64,000 nt of DNA from Flavobacteriales bacterium (GCA_023382455.1 JAHDVX010000004.1:17922-81921); one strand, 5' to 3'. Positions 5,154 to 22,901 are shown, numbered from the stretch's first letter. Translations and numbers: made by a program. The notes: a model not told the origin generated them from the sequence alone.

Positions 5154-7094
5154 TCACACACTCCTTACCTCCGTTACCCCATACCGCTTCAGCGTCTGCA
5201 CCGCGTTGGTCTTCTCCACATCGGTGAAACCGTTGTCGCGGAAGATCACGCGGCAGGTCTCCGGCTTCAGCTCCTCCTTCCATTGGCCGATGCCTTCGGC
5301 TACGGCGTTCGTGATCTGCTCGGCCAGGCACAGGAACAGGGCGCCGCTGCCCACATTGTACACCGTGCGCTTGGCAATGGTGCGTTCCTCGATGGGCAGC
5401 GTAAGGTCCAGGCCGTACTTCAGCAACACCTCGTAGAGCACATCGGCTTCGGTGCGGTCCGGCTTGATGTTCTCGGCGGCGCTCAGCAGGTTCTCCTGCA
5501 TCCGCTCAGGGTCGCCATCCCAGGCGTTGATGTTGCTGCTGTCCAGCTTGAAGACCCGGAAACCGATGTCCAGCTTGGCCAAGCGCTCCTGCTTCTGCTT
5601 CAGTTCCTCTTCCTCTTCTTCAGTGCGCACCGCTTTGGCCTCAAGCGCGTTGATCGACGCCTCCAATTCACTCACAATCTTCTTGCCTGCGCGACGGATG
5701 CGCTCCTTGCCGATCTCGGCTATCGTCTTGTAGCCCGCCTTGTACGCCTCGCTTTTGGCATCGGTAGGCTCGGGCAGTTGCACTTGGATGTGCTGGCGCT
5801 GGCCCCCATCCTCGGCGTTCAGCTGCATCACGGCGTGGGCGGTGGTGCCGGAGCCGGAGAAGAAGTCCAGGACTAGCCCTTCACTCGCAGAGATTCTCAT
5901 TAGCACTTCAATCAACTCGACAGGTTTCGGTGTCTCGAACACCGCTACACCTCCAAATAGCTCCTTCAAATCATTCTTGGCTATCTCCGTGGTTGAAACA
6001 TCCTTTGCAAACAACATTGATTCAGGGGTAAGGCCTCGATCCTTTGATTCCAAATAGGTTTTCACCCTAGGAACACCATTGCCCGTTTTACCGAACCAAA
6101 TTCTATTGTCGTCAATCGCCTCTTGCATTACTTCTTTAGTATAGAGCCAACATCTGCCACTTTCTAACTCGTGCTGCTTTCCGTTGGGCGCAGTCAACGT
6201 GTAAAATTGTGAAGGTGTCGCATGCCCTGCTTGTGCTGTCGCCGGATCTGACTTCCACGGACCTCGGGGGTCATTGTCTGGATTCTTATAGTTCGCAAGA
6301 GCTTTTTCGCTCATTGGTAATTGGTACAATGCCTTCTCATTATGATCACTTCTACGGAAGCATACGATATAGTCATGTCTATTTGAGACCACCTTTCGAT
6401 TCTCTCTATTCGTCCGTTTCTCCCATATGAAATTGGCCACGAAATTGCCTTCTCCGAATACGTCATCAGCCACACTCCTAAGACTGCTCAACTCGTTGTC
6501 ATCAATAGAGATGAAGATCACCCCATCCTCCCGCAGCAGGTTCCTCGCCAGCCGCAGCCGGGGGTACATCATGTTCAGCCAATTGCTGTGGTAGCGCCCG
6601 TCGGTATCGCTGTTCGTGCTAAGGGAGTTGCCTTCGCTGTCCACTTGGCCGGTAAGTTCCTTGTAGTTACGCAGGTTGTCGCGGTAGTTGTCCTTGTATA
6701 CGAAGTCCTTCCCGGTATTGTAAGGGGGGTCTATGTAGATCATCTTCACCTTTCCCGCGTAGCTCTTCTGCAGCAGCTTCAGTACCTCCAGGTTGTCGCC
6801 TTCGATGTAGAGGTTCTTGGTATTGGCCCAGTCCACGCTTTCCTCGGGGGCAGGGCGCAGGGTGCCGGTGCTGGGCTTGTGGGCCTCGCGGCGGGCCTGT
6901 GCCTTGCCCGCCCAGGTGAAGCGGTAGAATTCCTCGCCGGTCTCCACCTCGTTGCCCAGGATCTCCTGCAATGCCTTGAAGTCCACCTTGCCTTCGGCCA
7001 CCACCTCGGGGAAGAGCTCCTTCAGCTTGGCGATGTTGGCGGCCAGGAGGTCGGCGCTATGGCTTTCGGGGTCGGTGGCGGTGATCTTTTCCAT
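5154..7094 (-). CDS. mod: type III DNA methyltransferase Mod (adenine-specific)
   Basis: DPPYNTGKDF catalytic motif and LDFFSGSGTTAHAV AdoMet motif; start set at MEKITATDPESHSADLL within the ORF 5154..7139. Confidence 0.93.
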   Translation of the reverse strand: MEKITATDPESHSADLLAANIAKLKELFPEVVAEGKVDFKALQEILGNEVETGEEFYRFTWAGKAQARREAHKPSTGTLRPAPEESVDWANTKNLYIEGDNLEVLKLLQKSYAGKVKMIYIDPPYNTGKDFVYKDNYRDNLRNYKELTGQVDSEGNSLSTNSDTDGRYHSNWLNMMYPRLRLARNLLREDGVIFISIDDNELSSLRSVADDVFGEGNFVANFIWEKRTNRENRKVVSNRHDYIVCFRRSDHNEKALYQLPMSEKALANYKNPDNDPRGPWKSDPATAQAGHATPSQFYTLTAPNGKQHELESGRCWLYTKEVMQEAIDDNRIWFGKTGNGVPRVKTYLESKDRGLTPESMLFAKDVSTTEIAKNDLKELFGGVAVFETPKPVELIEVLMRISASEGLVLDFFSGSGTTAHAVMQLNAEDGGQRQHIQVQLPEPTDAKSEAYKAGYKTIAEIGKERIRRAGKKIVSELEASINALEAKAVRTEEEEEELKQKQERLAKLDIGFRVFKLDSSNINAWDGDPERMQENLLSAAENIKPDRTEADVLYEVLLKYGLDLTLPIEERTIAKRTVYNVGSGALFLCLAEQITNAVAEGIGQWKEELKPETCRVIFRDNGFTDVEKTNAVQTLKRYGVTEVRSV

Positions 7095-8781: not shown

Positions 8782-9546
8782 TCATTCCCGCCCAAGGGTC
8801 CTTCTCAGGGCCTCCTGCTCCGCACGCCGCTGCTGAATATCCGTGTTCACTGCCACCTGCTCGCGCAGGGGCAGGTCCTTGGTGGCCTTGGCCCGCAAGA
8901 CCTTGATCTCGGCTTCGAGTGCATCGATCCGTTGCAGGGTGGCGAGGTCCTCTGCGCTGCGCACGGCAGGGCGGTCGCGGAACACCCCCGTCTGTGCAGC
9001 GGCCCGGCATTGCACCACCGCCTGCATGTACCCGCCATAGAGGGTGCGGAGGTCGGTCTTGTCCAGCTGGGCAAAGCGCAAGGCCTGGTGGAAGGCCTGG
9101 GCCACTGCATCCGCGTAGAGCAGGGAGAGCACCGGCGTGTTCACGCTGGCCTCCAGGGTGCGCTTGCTGGCATCGTTCTGGTTGATGCGCTTGGTGCTTG
9201 CGTTCACCAGGTAGTTCTCCCGGTCGTACACAAAGAGCAGCACCGGATAGGGCACATACTTCTGCACCAGGTCGGCCACCTTGGTGCCGGTGCGCTCCAC
9301 CCGTTCAAGGCGTAGTTGCACCGCGAACACTTGCACCTCCTCGTAGCTGTAGGTATCGCTCGTGAAGGCAGGCACCTGAGCTGCCCGGATGCTGGCCAGC
9401 CAGTCCATTTGGTCGATACCCTCGTTCAGGAGCTTCTTTTCCGCTGCGGTGAGCGAAAAGTGCTTCAGGAAAAAGGCCTTGGTGAGCCTCTTCTGGATGA
9501 GGCAGCGCTCCGGCAGTTGCAGGATGTCTAGAATGAGCTGGCTCAC
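8782..9546 (-). CDS. DUF4391 domain-containing protein
   Basis: 254 aa; position next to the SF2 helicase with ATGA overlap and an EEVQVFAVQL...VPYPVLLFVYDRE pattern fit DUF4391. Confidence 0.7.
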   Translation of the reverse strand: MSQLILDILQLPERCLIQKRLTKAFFLKHFSLTAAEKKLLNEGIDQMDWLASIRAAQVPAFTSDTYSYEEVQVFAVQLRLERVERTGTKVADLVQKYVPYPVLLFVYDRENYLVNASTKRINQNDASKRTLEASVNTPVLSLLYADAVAQAFHQALRFAQLDKTDLRTLYGGYMQAVVQCRAAAQTGVFRDRPAVRSAEDLATLQRIDALEAEIKVLRAKATKDLPLREQVAVNTDIQQRRAEQEALRRTLGRE

Positions 9547-12500
9547 TTGATCACGAGGTAGGCCACCAGTTCCAGTTCACCGCTTTCCGCCAAACTCTTG
9601 GGTTGCAGGGTGGTGCCGCCCGGTGTGGCCAGTGAATCGAGCCCAACTTCCTCCTGCACCTCCACCACTTCGGCCATGGCCTTCTTCAGCAGCGCCCGGT
9701 AGGCCTCCATCTTCTTCCCGCCCCCGGTCTCCTTGTCGAAGGCCGCCACCAGCTTGGGCAGCACCTTGTCGTTGCCCATGCACAGCTTCCGGAAGTAGTC
9801 CAAGGCAGCACGGGTTTGGCGGGCGGTGAGCATATCGCTGCCATCGGCGCTCAGGTACACCAGGAAGTAGGGATAGAGGATGTTGTTGCGCAGACGCTCG
9901 GTGAAGGCGTTGGTAATGTCCTTGAGACAGAAAATCACGCCGGGCTTGATCGTCTCCAGGTTGCTCTGTACTACGGCATAGGAGGCCGGGGGGATGTTGT
10001 TGAGCGTTTCCAGCTCCGCGTCGGTGCTCTTCTCCAGGTCGATCTTGAAATCGTTGAAGGTGAGGTCGGTGATGGAGATGTTGCCATGGACGTCCTCCAT
10101 GTCCATCACCTGGTCCTGCAACTGCTTCAGCTGCCGTTTACGGTACTCCAGGTCCTGCATCTCCCGGCTGTTGCCGCTGATGATGTTGTCCTCGCCGGTG
10201 GCGGACACATCCAGCATCACCATGCGGCCTTGCACGCGTGCCACCAGGTCGATGAAGCTGTCCAGCTCCATGCTGGGGAAGAAGTTCACGAGCTGGATCT
10301 TCTCGTTCACCGAACCGATGCGGTCGATACGCCCAAAGCGCTGGATGATGCGCACCGGGTTCCAGTGGATGTCGTAGTTCACCAGATAGTCGCAGTCCTG
10401 CAGGTTCTGCCCCTCGCTGATGCAATCGGTGCAAATGAGCACATCGATGGCATTGGTCTCGTCGGGGAAGATCTCGTTGCGCTTCTTGCTCAGCGGACTG
10501 AAGTGGGTGAGGATGGTGTTCAGGTCCGCCTTGCACCCGGGCATGTTGGTCTTGTTGATGCCCGTGCCTGTGACCAGCGCACTGTAGAGCCCATACTCGG
10601 TGTATAGCCATTGTTCCAGCTCGCGATGCAGATAGGCGGCGGTGTCCGCGAACGCGGTGAAGACGATGACCTTCCTGTTGTTGTCGTTGATGGGCTGTGC
10701 GATCTTCTGCGCGATCATCTCCTTCAGCTTTTCCAGCTTGGCATCGCGGCTCACATCGATCAGCTTGATGCTGGCCATCAATTTGGTGAGCTTATCTCGA
10801 TCCAGCTTCAGGTCCTGTTTCCAGCGGATCAGGTCCAGGTCCTGGATCAGCACCTTGGTCTTTCCGCCCACGAGCAGGTCGCTCAGTTCGGTATCGTCCG
10901 GGTCGATGTCGGCGATCTCGATGTCATCACCCACCTCGCCGGTCTGGTGGTCCTCCAGCTGCTTCAGGTTCTTGTCGATCAGGTCCAGCAGGCTTTGGAT
11001 GGTGAGCTTGAAGGCGTGGATGGAGCTCTCCAGGCGCTTCAGCAGGTTCACCCGCATCAGGTAGATGAGGCTTTCCTCGCGATCCGCCTGCTTGAACACG
11101 GTACCGCGTTCGGTGAGCACGGCATACTTGGCCTCATAGGCCGGCTGCTTGTCCGGCCTGACGTACTGTAGCGGTTGGTAGTAGGCCAGGCTCAGCGTAC
11201 TGATCTCGTCGTAGATCTCCCCGATGTCCTTGAACTTGTTCTGGGTATCGATCTCCGGCTTCACGGTGATCGGTACCAGGCGTTCAGGGAACTTCCCGAT
11301 ATCCGCCATGTCGTAGTACTTCTCGATGTGCTTGCGCGAGCGTGCGATCGTGAGCATGTCGAGGATCTTGAAGTAGGCCCCGTCCAAGTCGTCCAGCAGG
11401 GTCTGCACCTTCAGTTTGTCCGGGTCGGTGTCCCGGTACCACTTGGTGAACTTGCGCTGGGCCTCGCGCATGATCTGCGCGATGCTATCCAGGCCATGGG
11501 GTCGAAAGGCACGGTCGTCGCCCTCGGTGATGAAGGCCACCTGGTTCTTCAGGTCGTTCATCTTGTTGTTCACCGGGGTGGCGCTGAGCATGAGGACCTT
11601 GGTGCGCACGTTGGCCCGGATCACGTCGTTCATCAGGCGCTTGTAGCGCGTCATGCCCTCGCGCCGCTGGGGGTTGTTGCGGAAGTTGTGGCTCTCATCG
11701 ATCACCACCAGGTCGTAGTTCCCCCAGTTGATCATCTCCAGATCGATGTCGCCGCTCTTGCCCTTGTCGCGGCTTAGATCGGTGTGGTTCAGCACATCGT
11801 AGTTGAAGCGGTCGTGCGCGAGGATGTTGCGCCGGTCGTTAAGCTGGTAGATGGTCCAGTTTTCCCGCAGCTTCTTGGGGGCTAACACCAGGATGCGATC
11901 GTTGCGCAGCTGGTAGTACTTCATGACGGCCAGCGCTTCGAAGGTCTTGCCCAAGCCCACGCTGTCCGCAATGATGCACCCGCCATAGGTCTCGATCTTC
12001 TGGATGGCGCCGATCACGGCGTCCTTCTGGAAGTTGTAGAGCATGTGCCAGATGCGGGAATCCTTCAAGCCCACCTGTTTGAGCTTCTGGTCGGCCCGCT
12101 CACTGATGGTGGAGTAGTGGAAGATCTCCCGGATGCAGTACTTGTAGATGGATTCCCCGCTGTTGCTCTTCACACCCAACTGCAGGAGCTCGGTCACCTT
12201 GTCGTTGAGCACTTCGCGGCTGTTGTTCCAGGCATGGCTGAAGAGTGCGAGGTACTGTTCGCTGCCTTGTTCAAAGGCGCTCACAAGCACCGGTGCCGGG
12301 CTGCTCGCCTTGCCCAGCCCCACGGCGTCCAAGTTGGCCGGAGTAAGCAGGAACGTCTTCAACAGATCGCCGGTCTGCACCAGGAGCAAGTTCTGGTTGG
12401 CCACGCCCCCCTTGCGGACCTGGAACTTGTCTTCCAACAGCCCCAGAACTTGTTGGATGCGATACCGGCGGTCCAGCTCAAGGTTGAGCGGTGCTTCCTT

Positions 12501-14290: not shown

Positions 14291-15901
14291 CTACGCACTA
14301 CCCACCGGATCATACATGTACCCCTTCACCGCTGCGGCCAGGTCTTCCGGCTTGGGTTCCGTGGCCAGGCCCGCGCGGTAGGCCTCCTCGGCGATGGCGG
14401 TGCCGATGGCGCGGGAGATGGCGCGGATGGCGGGGAGGCGCGGGTAGAGGGCGCCGTGCCGCAGGTCGGCTTCCTCCACGCTGTGGGCCAGGGTGCGCGC
14501 GGCGAGGAGGAACATGGCGTCGGTGATGTGGCGTGCGCCGGAGACGAGAGCGCCGAGACCGATGCCGGGGAAGATGTACGCGTTGTTGCCCTGTCCGGGG
14601 CGGAATTCCCGGCCTTCGTAGTGCACCGGTGCGAAGGGACTGCCGCTGGTGAAGACGGCGCGGCCGCCGCTCCAGGTGTAGGCCTCCTCGGCGGTGCACT
14701 CGGCGCGGCTGGTGGGGTTGCTGAGGGCGAAGATGACGGGGCGCTCGTTGAGGGCGGCCATCTTTTCGATCACGGCCTGGTTGAAGGTGCCGGGGCTGCC
14801 GGTGGCGCCGATGAGCACGTGGGGGCGCACGGCATCCAGCGCGTCCATGAAGGGCATGGGCGGCAGGGGCTGGGCGAAGCGGCGCTTGTGGTCGTTGAGG
14901 TCGGTGCGGCCTTCCACGATGAGGCCCTTGCTGTCCACGAAGCAGAGGCGGGCGCGGGCTTCCTCGGGGGTGAGGCCCTCCCCGATGAAGGCGGAGCGCA
15001 TGAGGTCGGCGATGCCGGTGGCGGCGGAGCCCGCGCCGAGGAAGAGTACGCGCAGGTCCTTGAAGGGGATGCCGGTGATGCGGGTGGAGGCGTGGATGCC
15101 GGCGAGGGCCACGGCGGCGGTGCCCTGGATGTCGTCGTTGAAGCAGCAGGCGCGGTCGCGGTATTTCTCCAACAGCGTGTAGGCGTTGGGGGTGGAAAAG
15201 TCCTCGAACTGGATCAGGGTCTTGGGGAAGCGGGCCTGCACTGCGGTGATGAACTCGTCCACCAGCTGGAAGTAGGCTTCGCCGGTGAGGCGCGGCTGGG
15301 GCCAGCCGAGGTAGTAGGGGTCGCTGCGCAGGGCCTCGTTGCCGGTGCCCACGTCGAGGGTGATGGGCATGCACTGGTGCGGCCGGATGCCGGCGGCGGC
15401 GGTGTAGATGGCGAGCTTGCCGATGGGGATGCCCATGCCGTTGGCGCCGAGGTCGCCCAGGCCCAGGATGCGCTGCCCGTCGGTGACCACGATCACGCGG
15501 ACGTCGTCCTCCGGCCAGTTGGCGAGCACTTCGGCGATGCGGCCGCGGTGGTCGGGCGTGATGTAGCAGCCCTTGGGCCGGCGGAAGATGTGCGCGAATT
15601 CCTGGCAGGCCTGGCCCACGGTGGGGGTGTAGATCAGGGGCATGATCTGCTCGATGTGGCGGATCACCACGGCGTAGAAGAGGCGCTCGTTGCGGTCCTG
15701 CAGGGAGTTGAGCAGGATGTAGCGCTCCAGGTCGTTCTCCTTGCGGCGCAGGCCCTCCATCACGCGGTCCACCTGCTGCTGTTGGGTGGCCACGGCGTAG
15801 GGCAGTAGGCCCTCCAGTCCGAGGGATCGGCGTTCCTCACGGGTGAATTCCACGGAGCGGTTGATGGCGCCGTCGAGGAGGATGTCGCGTCCTTTTTTCA
15901 T
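14291..15901 (-). CDS. NAD-dependent malic enzyme
   Basis: LIYTPTVGQACQ, ILGLGDLGANGMGIPIGK, FNDDIQGTAAV, FLGAGSAATGIA motifs; start at MKKGRDILL inside the longer ORF. Confidence 0.95.
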   Translation of the reverse strand: MKKGRDILLDGAINRSVEFTREERRSLGLEGLLPYAVATQQQQVDRVMEGLRRKENDLERYILLNSLQDRNERLFYAVVIRHIEQIMPLIYTPTVGQACQEFAHIFRRPKGCYITPDHRGRIAEVLANWPEDDVRVIVVTDGQRILGLGDLGANGMGIPIGKLAIYTAAAGIRPHQCMPITLDVGTGNEALRSDPYYLGWPQPRLTGEAYFQLVDEFITAVQARFPKTLIQFEDFSTPNAYTLLEKYRDRACCFNDDIQGTAAVALAGIHASTRITGIPFKDLRVLFLGAGSAATGIADLMRSAFIGEGLTPEEARARLCFVDSKGLIVEGRTDLNDHKRRFAQPLPPMPFMDALDAVRPHVLIGATGSPGTFNQAVIEKMAALNERPVIFALSNPTSRAECTAEEAYTWSGGRAVFTSGSPFAPVHYEGREFRPGQGNNAYIFPGIGLGALVSGARHITDAMFLLAARTLAHSVEEADLRHGALYPRLPAIRAISRAIGTAIAEEAYRAGLATEPKPEDLAAAVKGYMYDPVGSA

Positions 15902-15987
15902 GGATGATCGGCGAAAGGTACCGGAGATCAGGTGCGAAGGTCCGTGGGGCTCGGGTATTAGAAGCAGGGTGGATGACCCTTGGAATT

Positions 15988-16022
15988 TCATCCGTGTCCA
16001 TCCGTGTTCATCCGTGGTGGAA
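15988..16022. repeat. TCATCCGTGTCCATCCGTGTTCATCCGTGG intergenic repeat, copy 1
   Basis: Near-identical to 18352-18386 and 19938-19971. Confidence 0.8.
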
Positions 16023-16026
16023 AGCC

Positions 16027-17742
16027 CTACCAGCCGCCACCGCCACCGCCGCCGCCGCCGCCGCCCGAGGAACCACCCCCACCCGAGCCGCCGCTGCTGG
16101 AGGGTGGCGTACTGGAGGAGGACACGCTGCTGCCGAACGAGGAGTTGAGGTGCGAGGAGAACGAGCCGAAGTTGCCGATCGAACCGTTGTACCAGCCGGG
16201 GCGGTAGCTCGGGTTCACCACGGCACGGGCGATGAGGTCTTGGAAGCGTTCGCCCCAGATCTCCTCCACGCCGAACGCGATGGCGTAGGGCAGGTATTTC
16301 TCGAAGACCTCGGGCGTCATCGCGGGCGGATTGAAGTACTGGAGCTGCTTCTCCTCCGCCGTGCTGAGGTACATCTTGAAGCCTTTGAGCTTGGCGCGCA
16401 AGGCCAGCTTTTCGATGCTGGGTTTGCGGATCAGGCGGGCGTAGGTGAAGAAGAGGATCAGATTGGCCGCGACGAAGCCGCCGAAGAACAGCAGGTCGTA
16501 GTCGCCATCGAAGGAGGCGTGCAGCACCAACAGTGCGATGACGCCGACGATGAGGGTGAACAAGGCAAGGAGCCAGAACTTCCAGTTGTTGCCCTTGGAG
16601 ATGAAGCCGCTCCACTGGTCGCGCAATTTGCCGCGGAAGGCGCTGGCCATGCTCTGCACGCTCGGGTCATAGCTGCCGGTGATCTCGAAGCTGTCCGACC
16701 CCGATCCGAACATGTGGTTCAGCAGTTCCTGCTCCTCACGCGGCAGGCCGGAGCCGGGCTTGAGCTTCTCGATGGTGTAGGTCTCCTTGGTGATCAGGCC
16801 GAGCAGCATCTTCTCCTTCTCCTCGCTGATGCGGATGTAGCCTTTCACGGCGAGCGCGATCATGGCCGGTGTGATCAGGCTGTTGTCGGCGCTGCCGTTC
16901 ATCACCATGCCGGCGGAGGCGGGCGAGAGTCCATCGGGCGGCTCGAAGAGGGGGATCACCACGGGGCTGTCGGGATCGCGGCCGTGGCGGAACCAGGTGA
17001 TGAAGTAGTAGAGCAGCAGCAGCAGGGTGATGCCCCCGCCCACGAGCCCCAGGGCGTAGCGCTCGAAGAAGGTGGGCGGCGGCGGTTCGGCCACCACGCC
17101 CTTCTGGAAGCCCACCGCCACGGTGAGGCCCTCGAAGTAGCCCAGGGCGCGGCCGGTGAACCGCACCGTGTGCCCGTCGATGATGGAATCCGAACAGGCA
17201 TGTTCCGTGGAGCCCGCCACACCCGTGTAGCAGGCTGTCTGCCGCACCTGGGCCGCTTCCGGCAGGTGGATCAGCGCCGAGATGCTGTCCACGCCGAAGT
17301 TCCAGCCGTTGCCGTTCACGTTCCAGTAGATCTCGTCGAAGTCGGGGTAGAAACCCACCTGGCCCTCCGTGGTGTAGGTGATGCGGTACTGGTAGTCGCC
17401 GGGCTGGAGGTACACGTCCTTGTCGCCCACGTAGAGCACGAAGTCGTCGCCCTCTTCGGCGGTGTGGTGGGGCGACTCTTGGCCGCCCATCAGCACCTCG
17501 GAGTATTCGTACTTCACCCGGTGGGTGCGGCCGTTGTGGTCCGTGAAGCTCATCGGTAGCCGCCGCACGATACCGCGCTTGAACTCGACGCCCTCGGCGT
17601 GGATGCGGATGTCCTCCTTCACCGTGAGGCGACCGTCGGCCGCTACCGTGAGGTCGGTATGGAAGGCGATGATCCGCTCCGATTGAGCGAAGGCCGCCAG
17701 CCCGAAGGCTAGCGCGATCCCGAGCAGTACGTGCCGCATCAC
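16027..17742 (-). CDS. DUF2207 family membrane protein with poly-Gly C-terminus
   Basis: N-terminal extracellular domain, TM segments, C-terminal GGSGGGGSSGGGGGGGGGGGW; next to lemA. Confidence 0.9.
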   Translation of the reverse strand: MMRHVLLGIALAFGLAAFAQSERIIAFHTDLTVAADGRLTVKEDIRIHAEGVEFKRGIVRRLPMSFTDHNGRTHRVKYEYSEVLMGGQESPHHTAEEGDDFVLYVGDKDVYLQPGDYQYRITYTTEGQVGFYPDFDEIYWNVNGNGWNFGVDSISALIHLPEAAQVRQTACYTGVAGSTEHACSDSIIDGHTVRFTGRALGYFEGLTVAVGFQKGVVAEPPPPTFFERYALGLVGGGITLLLLLYYFITWFRHGRDPDSPVVIPLFEPPDGLSPASAGMVMNGSADNSLITPAMIALAVKGYIRISEEKEKMLLGLITKETYTIEKLKPGSGLPREEQELLNHMFGSGSDSFEITGSYDPSVQSMASAFRGKLRDQWSGFISKGNNWKFWLLALFTLIVGVIALLVLHASFDGDYDLLFFGGFVAANLILFFTYARLIRKPSIEKLALRAKLKGFKMYLSTAEEKQLQYFNPPAMTPEVFEKYLPYAIAFGVEEIWGERFQDLIARAVVNPSYRPGWYNGSIGNFGSFSSHLNSSFGSSVSSSSTPPSSSGGSGGGGSSGGGGGGGGGGGW

Positions 17743-18293: not shown

Positions 18294-18351
18294 GGGAGGG
18301 GGATTGGATGATCGAATGTAGGGGAAGGATCGGGGTAACGGCCCATGGATC

Positions 18352-18386
18352 TCATCCGTGTCCATCGTTGTTCATCCGTGGTGGAA
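18352..18386. repeat. TCATCCGTGTCCATCnTTGTTCATCCGTGG intergenic repeat, copy 2
   Basis: See copy 1. Confidence 0.8.
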
Positions 18387-18619
18387 GGCCACGTGCAAGG
18401 CGCATAAGATCGGATAGCCGGTAGTTCACGAAGATGCACTGAATGGTGCAAGTTCGGAGCTGAGGCTCGCGGATTGGTGCGAGTGGTATGCCTGTGTGCT
18501 TGTTGGTCCGATTCGCGCCGGTTGGTAGTTCTTCATGGCCAGTTCCGCATGTCAACCAATGTTCTATTGTCACGCCCGGGAAAGTGGACCTGCTTTGTAG
18601 CGATCTGAAACCACACATC

Positions 18620-19909: not shown

Positions 19910-19937
19910 GGCAGCAGGATCGGATGGACCTGGCATT

Positions 19938-19971
19938 TGATCCGTGTCCATCGGTGTTCATCCGTGGTTGA
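19938..19971. repeat. TGATCCGTGTCCATCGGTGTTCATCCGTGG intergenic repeat, copy 3
   Basis: See copy 1. Confidence 0.8.
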
Positions 19972-19992
19972 TGCCCACCGGATCCTGGGCGG

Positions 19993-20069
19993 TCACAAGT
20001 TCTGATCAAGCTTCTTCACCATCGTCAAGATCGTCGCTCCCTCTGTACAGCGGGAGCCACCGTTTCCCC
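19993..20069 (-). pseudogene. detached second copy of the paaZ 3' end (ATILTMVKKLDQ...)
   Basis: Reverse strand GGGGAAACGGTGGC..GCGACGATCTTGACGATGGTGAAGAAGCTTGATCAG encodes the same residues as the paaZ C-terminus; frame broken by a 20-nt segment. Confidence 0.85.
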
Positions 20070-20103
20070 CGCATTGCCCGCCGGAGCATGGCGTAGGCGG
20101 GTC

Positions 20104-20697
20104 TCATTCACCTTGCCCACCAGCGCTTCCGCCTTTGCGCACCTTGTACAAGCGTTCGCTGAAGCCCCCATTCTCCTCGAAATCGTGCCCCAGTCGTTGC
20201 AGTTGCCGGTCGATCATGGCCTTGGCCACATTGGCCAGGATGCTCCCGATGTTGCCTGCGATCTCTGCCACGGAACGTTCGGGGTGCTGCTTGTTCATCG
20301 TTCCGGCCCAGCGGATCAGGCTGTCCACTTCCTTGTGCCGTGCATCGATGAGCGCTTGGCGCATGGGGTCGTCGCTCGGCCATTCCTTCAACTTGTTCTG
20401 GCGGAGGAAGGCCTGGTAGTCCTTGCGTAGTTCGGTGAGGCTGGCCTTGGCCACGTTCGTCAGGTTCATCTCCAGCTTCTTCGACGTTGCGCTGAACACG
20501 CTGCCTTCGGCCACGTTGCGGCTTCCGCTGCGCGCGGCCTGCACCATCTGGTCCTTGGTGCGGCTGCCCGGTTCGATGAACTTTTTGACGAACCGGTCCG
20601 TGAAGTCGAACAGTAACTCGGCCACCTGGTAGCCCACGAGCTTTTCAAAGCCGCCGTTCTTGGGAAAAACCTTGCTATTGGGTGGGCGCTCGGGCAT
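20104..20697 (-). CDS. four helix bundle suffix domain-containing protein
   Basis: GGFEKLVGYQVAELLFDFTDRFVKKFI...RSGSRNVAEGSVFSATSKKLEMNLTNVAKASLTELRKDYQAFLR pattern of the four-helix-bundle (23S IVS-type) family. Confidence 0.88.
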   Translation of the reverse strand: MPERPPNSKVFPKNGGFEKLVGYQVAELLFDFTDRFVKKFIEPGSRTKDQMVQAARSGSRNVAEGSVFSATSKKLEMNLTNVAKASLTELRKDYQAFLRQNKLKEWPSDDPMRQALIDARHKEVDSLIRWAGTMNKQHPERSVAEIAGNIGSILANVAKAMIDRQLQRLGHDFEENGGFSERLYKVRKGGSAGGQGE

Positions 20698-20731
20698 GGC
20701 TGCAAGGTAGGCAGCCTGCCGCACTCCTTCG

Positions 20732-20782
20732 GGTGGACGGGGTGGACCGCGTACTGCGGCACCCGGTCCACCCCCGTCCACC
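20732..20782. repeat. hairpin GGTGGACGGGGTGGACCG / CGGTCCACCCCCGTCCACC
   Basis: 18/19-bp near-perfect arms, 14-nt loop, between paaZ stop and the four-helix gene start. Confidence 0.8.
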
Positions 20783-20803
20783 AGTGCGGCTGGCTTGCGG
20801 GTG

Positions 20804-22870
20804 CTATTTCTGATCCAACTTCTTGACCATGGTCAAAATGGTAGCAAGGGCGACTGTTTCCCCAGTTTCGTCAACGACGTCGACGAGCCACTTTACTATC
20901 CCCCGCGCCACATCCGCCCCCTTCGGCGAGTCGGCGGTCTTCGGCCGCTTCTCCTGGTCGAGCTTCTCGCGGCAGGTGAACTTCACCTGGATGGTGCTGC
21001 CCGGGTACACCGGCTTCAGGAAGCGGCACTCCTCGATGCCGTAGTTGAGCAGCACGGGGCCCTTCGGCGGGTCCACGAAGAGGCCGGCCGCCCGCGAGAG
21101 GATGAAGTAGCCGTGCGCCACGCGGCCGGTGAAGGGGGTGCCATCGAGGCTGTTGGCGTCCATGTGGGCGTAGAAGCGGTCGCCGCTGAGCGCGGCAAAG
21201 TCCTCCACGTTCTGCAGCGTCACCAGGTGCTTCTCGGTGATCAGCGTGTCGCCGATGTTCAGCTCCTCGAAGTGCAGGCGGAAGGGGTGCTGCTCGGTGA
21301 TGTGGTACCTGGCGCCCTGCTGGTACTGCTGGGTGAGCGCGGTGATGCCGGTGGGGCTGCCCTGGATGGCGGTGCGCTGCAGGTAGTGGAGCACGCCGCG
21401 CTTGCCGCCCATCTCCTCGCCGCCGCCCGCGCGGCCGGGGCCGCCGTGCACCAGCGTGGCCAGGGGCGAGCCGTGGCCGGTGTTCTCCTTGGCCATGTCG
21501 CGGTTCAGCACCAGCATGCGGCCGTGGTGGCTGGCGGCGCCCCACACGAACTGCTGGGCCGTCTTGTCATCGTACGTGGCGATGGTGGCCACCAGCGAGC
21601 CCTTGCCCAGCTTGGTGAGGGCCACGGCATCGTCCAGGTCGGTGTACGGCATCAGCGTGCTCACCGGACCGAAGGCCTCCACGTTGTGGCTCTGCTGGTT
21701 CTTCCAGGGATCGGGGTTCAGCAGTAGGATGGGGCTCATGAAGGCGCCCTTCTGCACATCGGCCCCGGTCACGTTCACACTGTCCAGGTCGCCGTACACC
21801 ACCTGCGAGGCCTTGAGCAGTTCGGCCAGCGCGCGCTTCACTTCCTCGCGCTGCGCCTTGCCCGCCAGCGCGCCCATGCGCACACCTTCCGCACGCGGAT
21901 CGCCGATCACGGTGCTGCCGAGGCGCTTGCCCAGGGCGATCTGCACGTCCTCGATCAGGTTCTGCGGCACCAGGATGCGGCGCGCGCCGGTGCAGCGCTG
22001 CCCGCACTTCAGGGTGATCTCGCGGCCCACCTCCTTGATGAAGAGGTCGTACTCCTCGGTGCCGGGCACGGCGTCCGGCCCGAGCACGATGGCGTTGAGG
22101 CTGTCGGCCTCCATGTTGAAGGGCACGCTCTCGTCGATGAGGCGGTCGTGGCGCTTGAGCATGCGGCCGGTGCTGGCGCTGCCGGTGAAGGTGACCACGT
22201 CCTGGTGCATCACGTGGTCGAGCAGATCGCCCGCGCTGCCCACGATCAGCTGCAGCGCGCCCTCGGGCAGGATGCCGCTGGCGATGATGTCCTTCACCAT
22301 GGCTTCGGTGAGGTAGCTGGTGACGGTGGCGGGCTTCACCACGGCGGGCACGCCGGCCATCCAGTTCACGGCGCACTTCTCCAGCATGCCCCAGATGGGG
22401 AAGTTGAAGGCGTTGATGTGCACGGCCACGCCCTCCTTGGGCACCATGATGTGGTGGCCGATGAAGGTGCCGGTCTTGCTGGTCTTGATGGCCTCGCCGT
22501 CCACGTAGAAGGGCATGTTGCCCAGGGTGCGGCGCAAGCTGGCGTTGGCGAACAGGTTGCCGATGCCGCCCTCGATGTCCACCCAGCTGTCGGCCTTGGT
22601 GGCGCCGGTCTTGTAACTGATGGTGTAATACTTGTCCTTGCGCTCCATCAGGTACAGGGCCAGGGCCTTCAGCATGCGCCCGCGCTCGGGGAAGGTCATC
22701 TTCCGCAGCTTGGGTCCGCCCACGGTGCGGGCGTAGTGGAGCATGGCGGCGAAGTCGAGGCCGCCGGAGGAGGTGGTGGCGATGAGCTCGCCGGTGCTGG
22801 CGTCGAGGAGTTCGGCTTGTTTCCCGGTACCGGCCACCCATTGGCCGGCGATGTAGTTCTTCAGTTGCAT
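20804..22870 (-). CDS. paaZ: bifunctional phenylacetic acid degradation protein PaaZ (aldehyde dehydrogenase + MaoC-like hydratase)
   Basis: N-terminal ALDH domain (MQLKNYIAGQWVAG...) fused to MaoC domain (FAALSGDRFYAHMD...). Confidence 0.95.
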   Translation of the reverse strand: MQLKNYIAGQWVAGTGKQAELLDASTGELIATTSSGGLDFAAMLHYARTVGGPKLRKMTFPERGRMLKALALYLMERKDKYYTISYKTGATKADSWVDIEGGIGNLFANASLRRTLGNMPFYVDGEAIKTSKTGTFIGHHIMVPKEGVAVHINAFNFPIWGMLEKCAVNWMAGVPAVVKPATVTSYLTEAMVKDIIASGILPEGALQLIVGSAGDLLDHVMHQDVVTFTGSASTGRMLKRHDRLIDESVPFNMEADSLNAIVLGPDAVPGTEEYDLFIKEVGREITLKCGQRCTGARRILVPQNLIEDVQIALGKRLGSTVIGDPRAEGVRMGALAGKAQREEVKRALAELLKASQVVYGDLDSVNVTGADVQKGAFMSPILLLNPDPWKNQQSHNVEAFGPVSTLMPYTDLDDAVALTKLGKGSLVATIATYDDKTAQQFVWGAASHHGRMLVLNRDMAKENTGHGSPLATLVHGGPGRAGGGEEMGGKRGVLHYLQRTAIQGSPTGITALTQQYQQGARYHITEQHPFRLHFEELNIGDTLITEKHLVTLQNVEDFAALSGDRFYAHMDANSLDGTPFTGRVAHGYFILSRAAGLFVDPPKGPVLLNYGIEECRFLKPVYPGSTIQVKFTCREKLDQEKRPKTADSPKGADVARGIVKWLVDVVDETGETVALATILTMVKKLDQK

Positions 22871-22901
22871 GGGGCGAAGGTAAAGGCGCACCGAAACCAT
22901 A

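Follow-up and report, generated by a model that had tools for sequence, protein, structure and literature searches.

WHO-like displacement of the ends of paaZ and carB in an uncultured Flavobacteriales genus

Introduction

How does a conserved metabolic gene come to have two 3' ends? In the genome of an uncultured Flavobacteriales bacterium (G000; 3.43 Mb, 51 contigs), paaZ is followed on its 3' side by a hairpin, a four-helix-bundle suffix gene and a detached second tail, in that order. The window analysed here is the whole stretch of 64,000 nucleotides that holds this locus (G000:C4:17922-81921). A preliminary description attributed the arrangement to a mobile element defined by the four-helix gene, which would have inserted into the end of paaZ and supplied a recoded tail of its own. 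The observation is confirmed, being real and bigger than first described: gene ends in the genus are displaced and recoded, the displacement recurs with changing cargo, filled sites have empty counterparts, and the ends of the affected genes have lost the species history. The interpretation offered with it is partly supported.

Genomes and gene calls

The genomes compared are mostly MAGs, and the close relatives are mostly Flavobacteriales or Bacteroidetes, a few with implausible species labels. Gene calls in the scans are simple ORF calls. The pattern recurs across independent assemblies, including the single-contig genome G009 (displaced head, dehydrogenase tail) and the near-complete genomes G003 and G059.

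Structure of the window locus

Table 1. Features at the 3' side of paaZ in the window.
Feature	Position	Strand	Remarks
paaZ, host gene	20804..22900	-	ORF list; TIGR02278, E 1.2e-268, 893 bits; likely start is the ATG at 22870
Recoded tail joined to paaZ, codons ~667-698 and stop	20804..20899	-	Synonymous changes only; rare codons
Long hairpin between paaZ stop and four-helix gene	20713..20800	-	Fold -66.9 kcal/mol, z -7.75
Four-helix-bundle suffix protein gene (cargo)	20104..20697	-	TIGR04258, 51.7 bits; ORF can start at 20781
Displaced native paaZ tail, degraded, ~codon 675 to end	19995..20108	-	nhmmer, 38.7 bits
29-nt palindromic insert inside displaced tail, CGCCTACGCC..GGCGGGCAATGC	20071..20099	-	Same insert in the displaced tail of G004
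Second small palindrome breaking up displaced tail, TCCCGCTGTACAGAGGGA	20037..20054	-	

The detached tail lies where it had first been described, downstream of the four-helix gene, and extends further than was recognized, to ~20108 (Table 1); the TGA stop of the four-helix gene falls within its junction, GAATGAGACC. The CCCGCC/GGCGGG hairpin that had been placed after the detached tail is in fact the palindrome at 20071-20099, which lies inside the tail and breaks it up, and the small palindrome reported within the tail is present. The long hairpin occurs as a single copy in 400 kb of the window genome. A dispersed repeat of ~53 nt (around ATCCGTGTCCATCGGTGTTCATCCGTGG) was also noted at 18340-18392 and 19926-19978, with a third copy near 15963-16026.

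The differences between the two tails are silent. As originally stated, all are synonymous, with 10 of the 17 comparable codons changed and none non-synonymously; relative to the native tail of G007, the attached tail of the window has 20 changes in 28 comparable codons, again with no non-synonymous change. Between G000 and G009, synonymous identity drops from 0.89 for the paaZ body to 0.24 for the final 32 codons. These 32 codons have a mean log adaptiveness of -1.20, compared with -0.15 for the paaZ internal mean, and a GC3 of 0.62 compared with 0.95 in the rest of the gene. Their codon adaptation is the lowest among 194 gene tails, which bears out the earlier remark that the fused tail is atypical in its codons. 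The detached copy is the native tail, as had been supposed: its 36-nt core is 97% identical to the attached tails of G009 and G007, and relatives without the insert have the detached type joined to paaZ.

Recoding beyond the expectation from codon usage was significant for the window (P 0.0017, relative to the G007 tail) and also in G040, G059 and G042; it was not significant in G005, G015, G016, G021, G018 and G004, nor for the window tail relative to its own short displaced tail. Being significant in some genomes and not in others, excess recoding is therefore not a general law.

At a 36-nt threshold (29/36), paaZ was the sole gene with a downstream copy of its tail among ~250 gene tails in ~400 kb of the window genome, and the upstream and antisense controls of this test gave no matches. 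A remnant of a second paaZ/maoC paralogue, named at the outset as a reading that would undo the proposal, can be excluded: the displaced pieces are 3' (or 5') ends near the attached paaZ, several per array, and full-length paaZ is single per genome among the matches listed, apart from fragments on split contigs.

Recurrence of displaced paaZ tails

A profile search with the paaZ tail detected displaced tails in 14 of the 29 genomes of the genus, a count that takes no account of relatedness (G018, G042 and G059 appear to have one event in common). The tails lie downstream of paaZ on the same strand, in arrays of up to five in tandem; G016 and G021 have four displaced tails each, and weaker traces are present in G049 and G019. 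By a stricter test on named records, displaced tails were found at 8 of 21 loci in the genus. At 53 loci from other genera, there were none.

Many genomes have a displaced tail that resembles another genome's attached tail more closely than their own. For G040, identity of the displaced tail is 100% over 87 nt with the attached tail of G060 and 75% with that of G040 itself; for G059, it is 97% with the attached tail of G007 and 76% with that of G059 itself. Where a genome lacks a displaced copy, its attached tail is mostly native-type, and clearly recoded tails sit with a displaced copy. Exceptions are G017, in which the displaced copy is 98% identical to the attached tail, and G001 and G003, which have native-type attached tails beside short or degraded displaced tails. 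Displaced paaZ tails recurrently start at codon 669, at the motif RTGAAG, which often holds the cargo's own TGA stop and which the recoded tails have lost (GTA AAG, GTC AAA).

Pairs of empty and filled sites were found at both paaZ and carB. The attached tail of G044 and the flank that comes after it recur in G042 as the displaced tail with its flank. Similarly, G051 and G003 have a tail end, leader and four-helix gene in common, a unit that joins paaZ directly in G051 and is separated from it by newer cassettes in G003. At carB, a tail, a hairpin and a reversed four-helix gene are joined directly in G022 and displaced behind other DNA in G010 and G049. These pairs indicate that the native end and its neighbour were pushed away by insertion, and the proposed displacement of the native tail is thereby upheld.

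In relatives, reverse-transcriptase-like and IS110-like proteins, as judged by eye, were noted downstream of paaZ (L140 of G039, ORF at oriented 9174-9920, and L134 of G044, ORF at oriented 5443-6456).

Other targets and the history of gene ends

Displaced carB tails are present in 9 of 17 genomes, with lengths of ~27 to 519 codons; they often start at codon ~904, the full range being codon 418 to 910. In G009, an acyl-CoA dehydrogenase gene has one displaced tail, beyond two opposite-strand genes. Nor is the 3' end the sole target, as had been thought. The 5' end of paaZ is affected too: at least 8 genomes have a paaZ head on the upstream side of the attached gene, in most with cargo between, and the head of the attached gene differs from it. 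Among ~755 genes (1.2 Mb, two genomes), the clear displaced ends were the paaZ tail of G000, the paaZ head of G009 and the acyl-CoA dehydrogenase tail of G009, and the antisense controls of this repeat scan gave no matches. That every gene in the genus behaves so is excluded; the other matches look like repeats or paralogues, and three clear cases indicate that the targets are few and specific.

In G054, L135 encodes two related proteins of ~290 aa (by eye; oriented 336-1205 and 1578-2465) in consecutive cassettes that separate displaced paaZ heads from the attached one, and L241 contains a 519-codon displaced carB fragment without stops (oriented 14452-16029). Another very long displaced carB end is that of G012, where the C-terminal half of the gene lies at a contig end (L252, contig C69).

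Across 22 genomes, synonymous-codon identity in paaZ is 0.79 in the core, 0.45-0.68 in the last 100 codons and ~0.6 in codons 30-90, and amino-acid identity at the 3' end remains high despite the synonymous drop. In carB, synonymous identity is reduced at both ends. The correlation of distances in end windows with those in the core is low (r 0.21-0.27 at the 3' end and 0.22 at the 5' end of paaZ; 0.03-0.27 at the 3' end of carB), and windows inside the genes mostly reach r 0.4-0.8. Among 18 gene families, a small control set in which some families are probably shadow ORFs, the tail deficit is largest for paaZ (-0.28) and third largest for carB (-0.17).

Marks of exchange between genomes

The displaced tail of G004 contains the identical 29-nt insert at the identical codon position as that of the window, next to a different cargo. 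This insert has one copy in 400 kb of the window genome and none in 400 kb of G009, and the single copy excludes a dispersed palindrome as the source of the shared insert. A second variant, ATCACGGAA, is common to the displaced tails of G003, G004 and G021. At the amino-acid level, the recoded tails are still of the type found in their clade (KW...ALA or KF...AIA), a point against distant donors. A search for a donor with the recoded tail of the window found none, the nearest match being 85% (G040, itself recoded) and ~80% outside the genus. Among the plasmids and viral contigs searched, none had a gene end plus cargo; like the missing donor, this counts against an explanation by cassette transfer. 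ComEC is present, and as it is common in bacteria it proves nothing about DNA uptake.

Cargo and the four-helix gene

The cargo between tails comprises four-helix genes, a 133-aa family, lipoprotein-like and LprI-type genes, Fic and an HNH nuclease, in addition to DUF6036 and genes with no Pfam match. Many cargo genes are anti-phage or toxin-antitoxin genes, and cargo families are common to arrays of different genomes in different contexts; the 133-aa protein, for example, has 78% identity between its copies in G003 and G021. The larger genes on the downstream side of paaZ match a type I restriction system (G040), a type II methyltransferase (G018), a type III system (G060) and, downstream of the paaZ array of G059, a short Argonaute with a TIR-type partner (PADLOC pAgo_I, Aga_TIR; L127:9233-12076). 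In G018, G042 and G059, the insert adjoining paaZ consists only of the recoded tail and ~41 nt. The start of the cargo often overlaps the stop codon of the tail before it (TGATG, ATGA, TAATG), and these overlaps suggest, from the sequence, that tail and cargo may be translationally coupled.

The assignment of the window cargo to the four-helix-bundle proteins stands, with TIGR04258 (51.7, cut-off 40) and TIGR02436 (24.1, cut-off 24) above their cut-offs and Pfam PF05635 (IVP; 23.8, cut-off 33.8) below; PDB and PHROG searches with the protein gave no match. The gene is neither in 23S rRNA nor beside a diversity-generating reverse transcriptase, and sits between paaZ and the displaced tail. Four-helix genes lie beside paaZ in G000, G001, G003, G049 and G051, following native-type tails in G001, G051 and G049. 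The expectation that one might also be found by the displaced end of another host gene was borne out at carB, where they lie beside the gene or its displaced tail in G003, G010, G017, G022 and G049. The sequences cluster by locus (~80-95% within the paaZ copies, 59-71% between paaZ and carB copies), and at both loci the host stop and the four-helix gene are separated by a hairpin, in either four-helix orientation. However, the proposal that the gene defines the element is not supported. In other genomes, the inserts at this site have unrelated cargo or no gene, and the four-helix gene at carB was already next to the native tail and was displaced along with it. It is a frequent guest, unnecessary for displacement.

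Four-helix suffix genes also directly follow dinB (DNA polymerase IV), as a conserved pair, in G003, G005, G007 and G009 (L146, L148, L149 and L151). No displaced dinB tails were seen with these genes.

Discussion

Homologous recombination is favoured as the means of spread because neither a nuclease shared by the cassettes nor a tyrosine recombinase at the arrays was found. Among 14 genomes searched for PF00589, none had a match at the paaZ or carB arrays, the nearest on the paaZ contig of G000 being ~16 kb from paaZ. We consider the chances evenly balanced that gene-end cassettes spread by recombination through two arms of homology. A cassette would consist of a synonymously recoded paaZ 3' end with its cargo, the window representing one unit of an array. 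On entry within the last paaZ codons, the body of the recipient gene would join the recoded end, leaving PaaZ intact, and the recipient's own end would shift downstream of the cargo. The conserved gene body would provide the left arm and the displaced native-type tail the right arm, with DNA probably taken up from related species. Repeated entry could then build tandem tails and cargo, the newest adjoining the gene, and cargo may be co-expressed with the host gene. Recoding would prevent recombination between the two copies, which would delete the cargo, and cassettes with too similar an end would be lost. A variant in which attached tails evolve to avoid their own displaced copy is unsupported, as they are no more different from their own than from those of others (shuffle P 0.97).

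Counting against two-arm recombination, the recurrent displaced starts (codon 669 of paaZ, ~904 of carB) go beyond the need of plain recombination. In paaZ, their recurrence at RTGAAG, a motif absent from the recoded tails, fits true homing, in which a sequence-specific nuclease, encoded in some of the cassettes or at another place in the genome, would cut the native end near codon 669, and repair with a cassette-bearing copy as template would install a recoded, cut-resistant end with its cargo. The geometry of the arrays and the pattern of 3' diversity are identical to those of the homing WHO elements (PMC7282813), and an HNH nuclease is among the cargo of G042 and G059. Nevertheless, homing seems unlikely here: the window cassette and most others have no nuclease, few arrays have the HNH protein, which is encoded there on the opposite strand, insertions also involve the 5' end of paaZ, and carB displaced starts fall anywhere in codons 418-910.

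The variable displaced start would also be accounted for, together with the recoded attached end and the cargo abutting the displaced tail, by one-sided homology-facilitated illegitimate recombination, in which foreign DNA is anchored in paaZ, its other end is joined without homology and the recipient tail is left behind. The process is known in transformable bacteria (PMC3240628). As the general process it is improbable, since the joint would be expected anywhere downstream, yet repeatedly lies inside the last codons of the same gene, and since displaced tails with common derived marks are found in different genomes with different cargo. It could perhaps have been the founding event of each lineage, with two-arm recombination spreading the cassettes.

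Integrase-type elements with attachment sites in gene ends, since reduced to cargo, have a precedent in e14 at icd of Escherichia coli, where the insert likewise brings a replacement 3' end with single-base changes, 12 in the described case, and the native end is displaced (icdC) (PMC4759930). However, e14 uses site-specific recombination at 11-bp repeats (PMC4759930), whereas at paaZ and carB the displaced starts vary, though with codon 669 recurrent in paaZ, both gene ends are in use, inserts can extend as little as 41 nt past the tail, and the arrays of the 14 genomes showed no tyrosine recombinase; such an origin is very improbable. That insertion into gene ends is the work of an element defined by the four-helix gene, as first proposed, is barely credible even with such genes beside paaZ in five genomes and beside carB or its displaced tail in five, because most arrays have none, cassettes without this gene effectively refute it as a general engine, and the sequences group by locus, with the carB gene displaced rather than inserted.

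Gene ends are also the site of module exchange in orphan rhs/CDI systems, in which new modules enter the 3' part of a gene and older ones are displaced downstream. There, the gene's own C-terminus changes, whereas the cassettes at paaZ and carB keep the protein end and change codons alone. Integron gene cassettes are arrayed as well; their small cargo genes lack promoters, and toxin-antitoxin and defence genes are among them. Unlike in integrons, no integrase was found at the paaZ and carB arrays, and the repeats are the ends of housekeeping genes.

The WHO elements at FBA1 in Torulaspora and Lachancea provide a conserved metabolic gene with a diverged 3' end in place of the old one, which is left downstream, with tandem clusters and conflicting 5' and 3' histories, and the displaced fragment has been proposed to act as a second homology arm (PMC7282813). 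Replacement of the 3' end, displacement, tandem clusters, excess synonymous diversity at the 3' end and conflicting history are all present at paaZ/carB. WHO elements encode their own homing endonuclease and home in meiosis (PMC7282813); an intein-derived zinc-finger endonuclease of the WHO type was not seen in the cargo (four-helix in the window; LprI, Fic, HNH, DUF6036 or no Pfam match in others). Unlike in WHO clusters, the cargo varies, with four-helix, restriction, short Argonaute, toxin-antitoxin and lipoprotein genes, and insertions occur at the 5' end as well. The architecture, WHO-like gene-end displacement in a bacterial genus with no recombinase found in the inserts, is shown directly by the sequences; the mechanism proposed for it is an inference.

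More broadly, and with somewhat less than even confidence, we propose a class of recombinase-free bacterial mobile cassettes bounded by recoded ends of housekeeping genes (both ends of paaZ, and carB). Such cassettes would spread between species by homologous recombination and build arrays of defence and other genes with the host protein unchanged, as a natural counterpart of a recoded rescue copy. If this is right, cassettes move without an enzyme of their own, through a silent rewrite of the gene in which they land, and some housekeeping-gene ends with a history unlike that of their middles would be explained. The genus would then offer a bacterial parallel to the yeast WHO elements that is directly testable. 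Defence genes cluster at hot spots, often without an integrase to explain them; here, each insertion leaves behind the old end of the host gene as a readable record.
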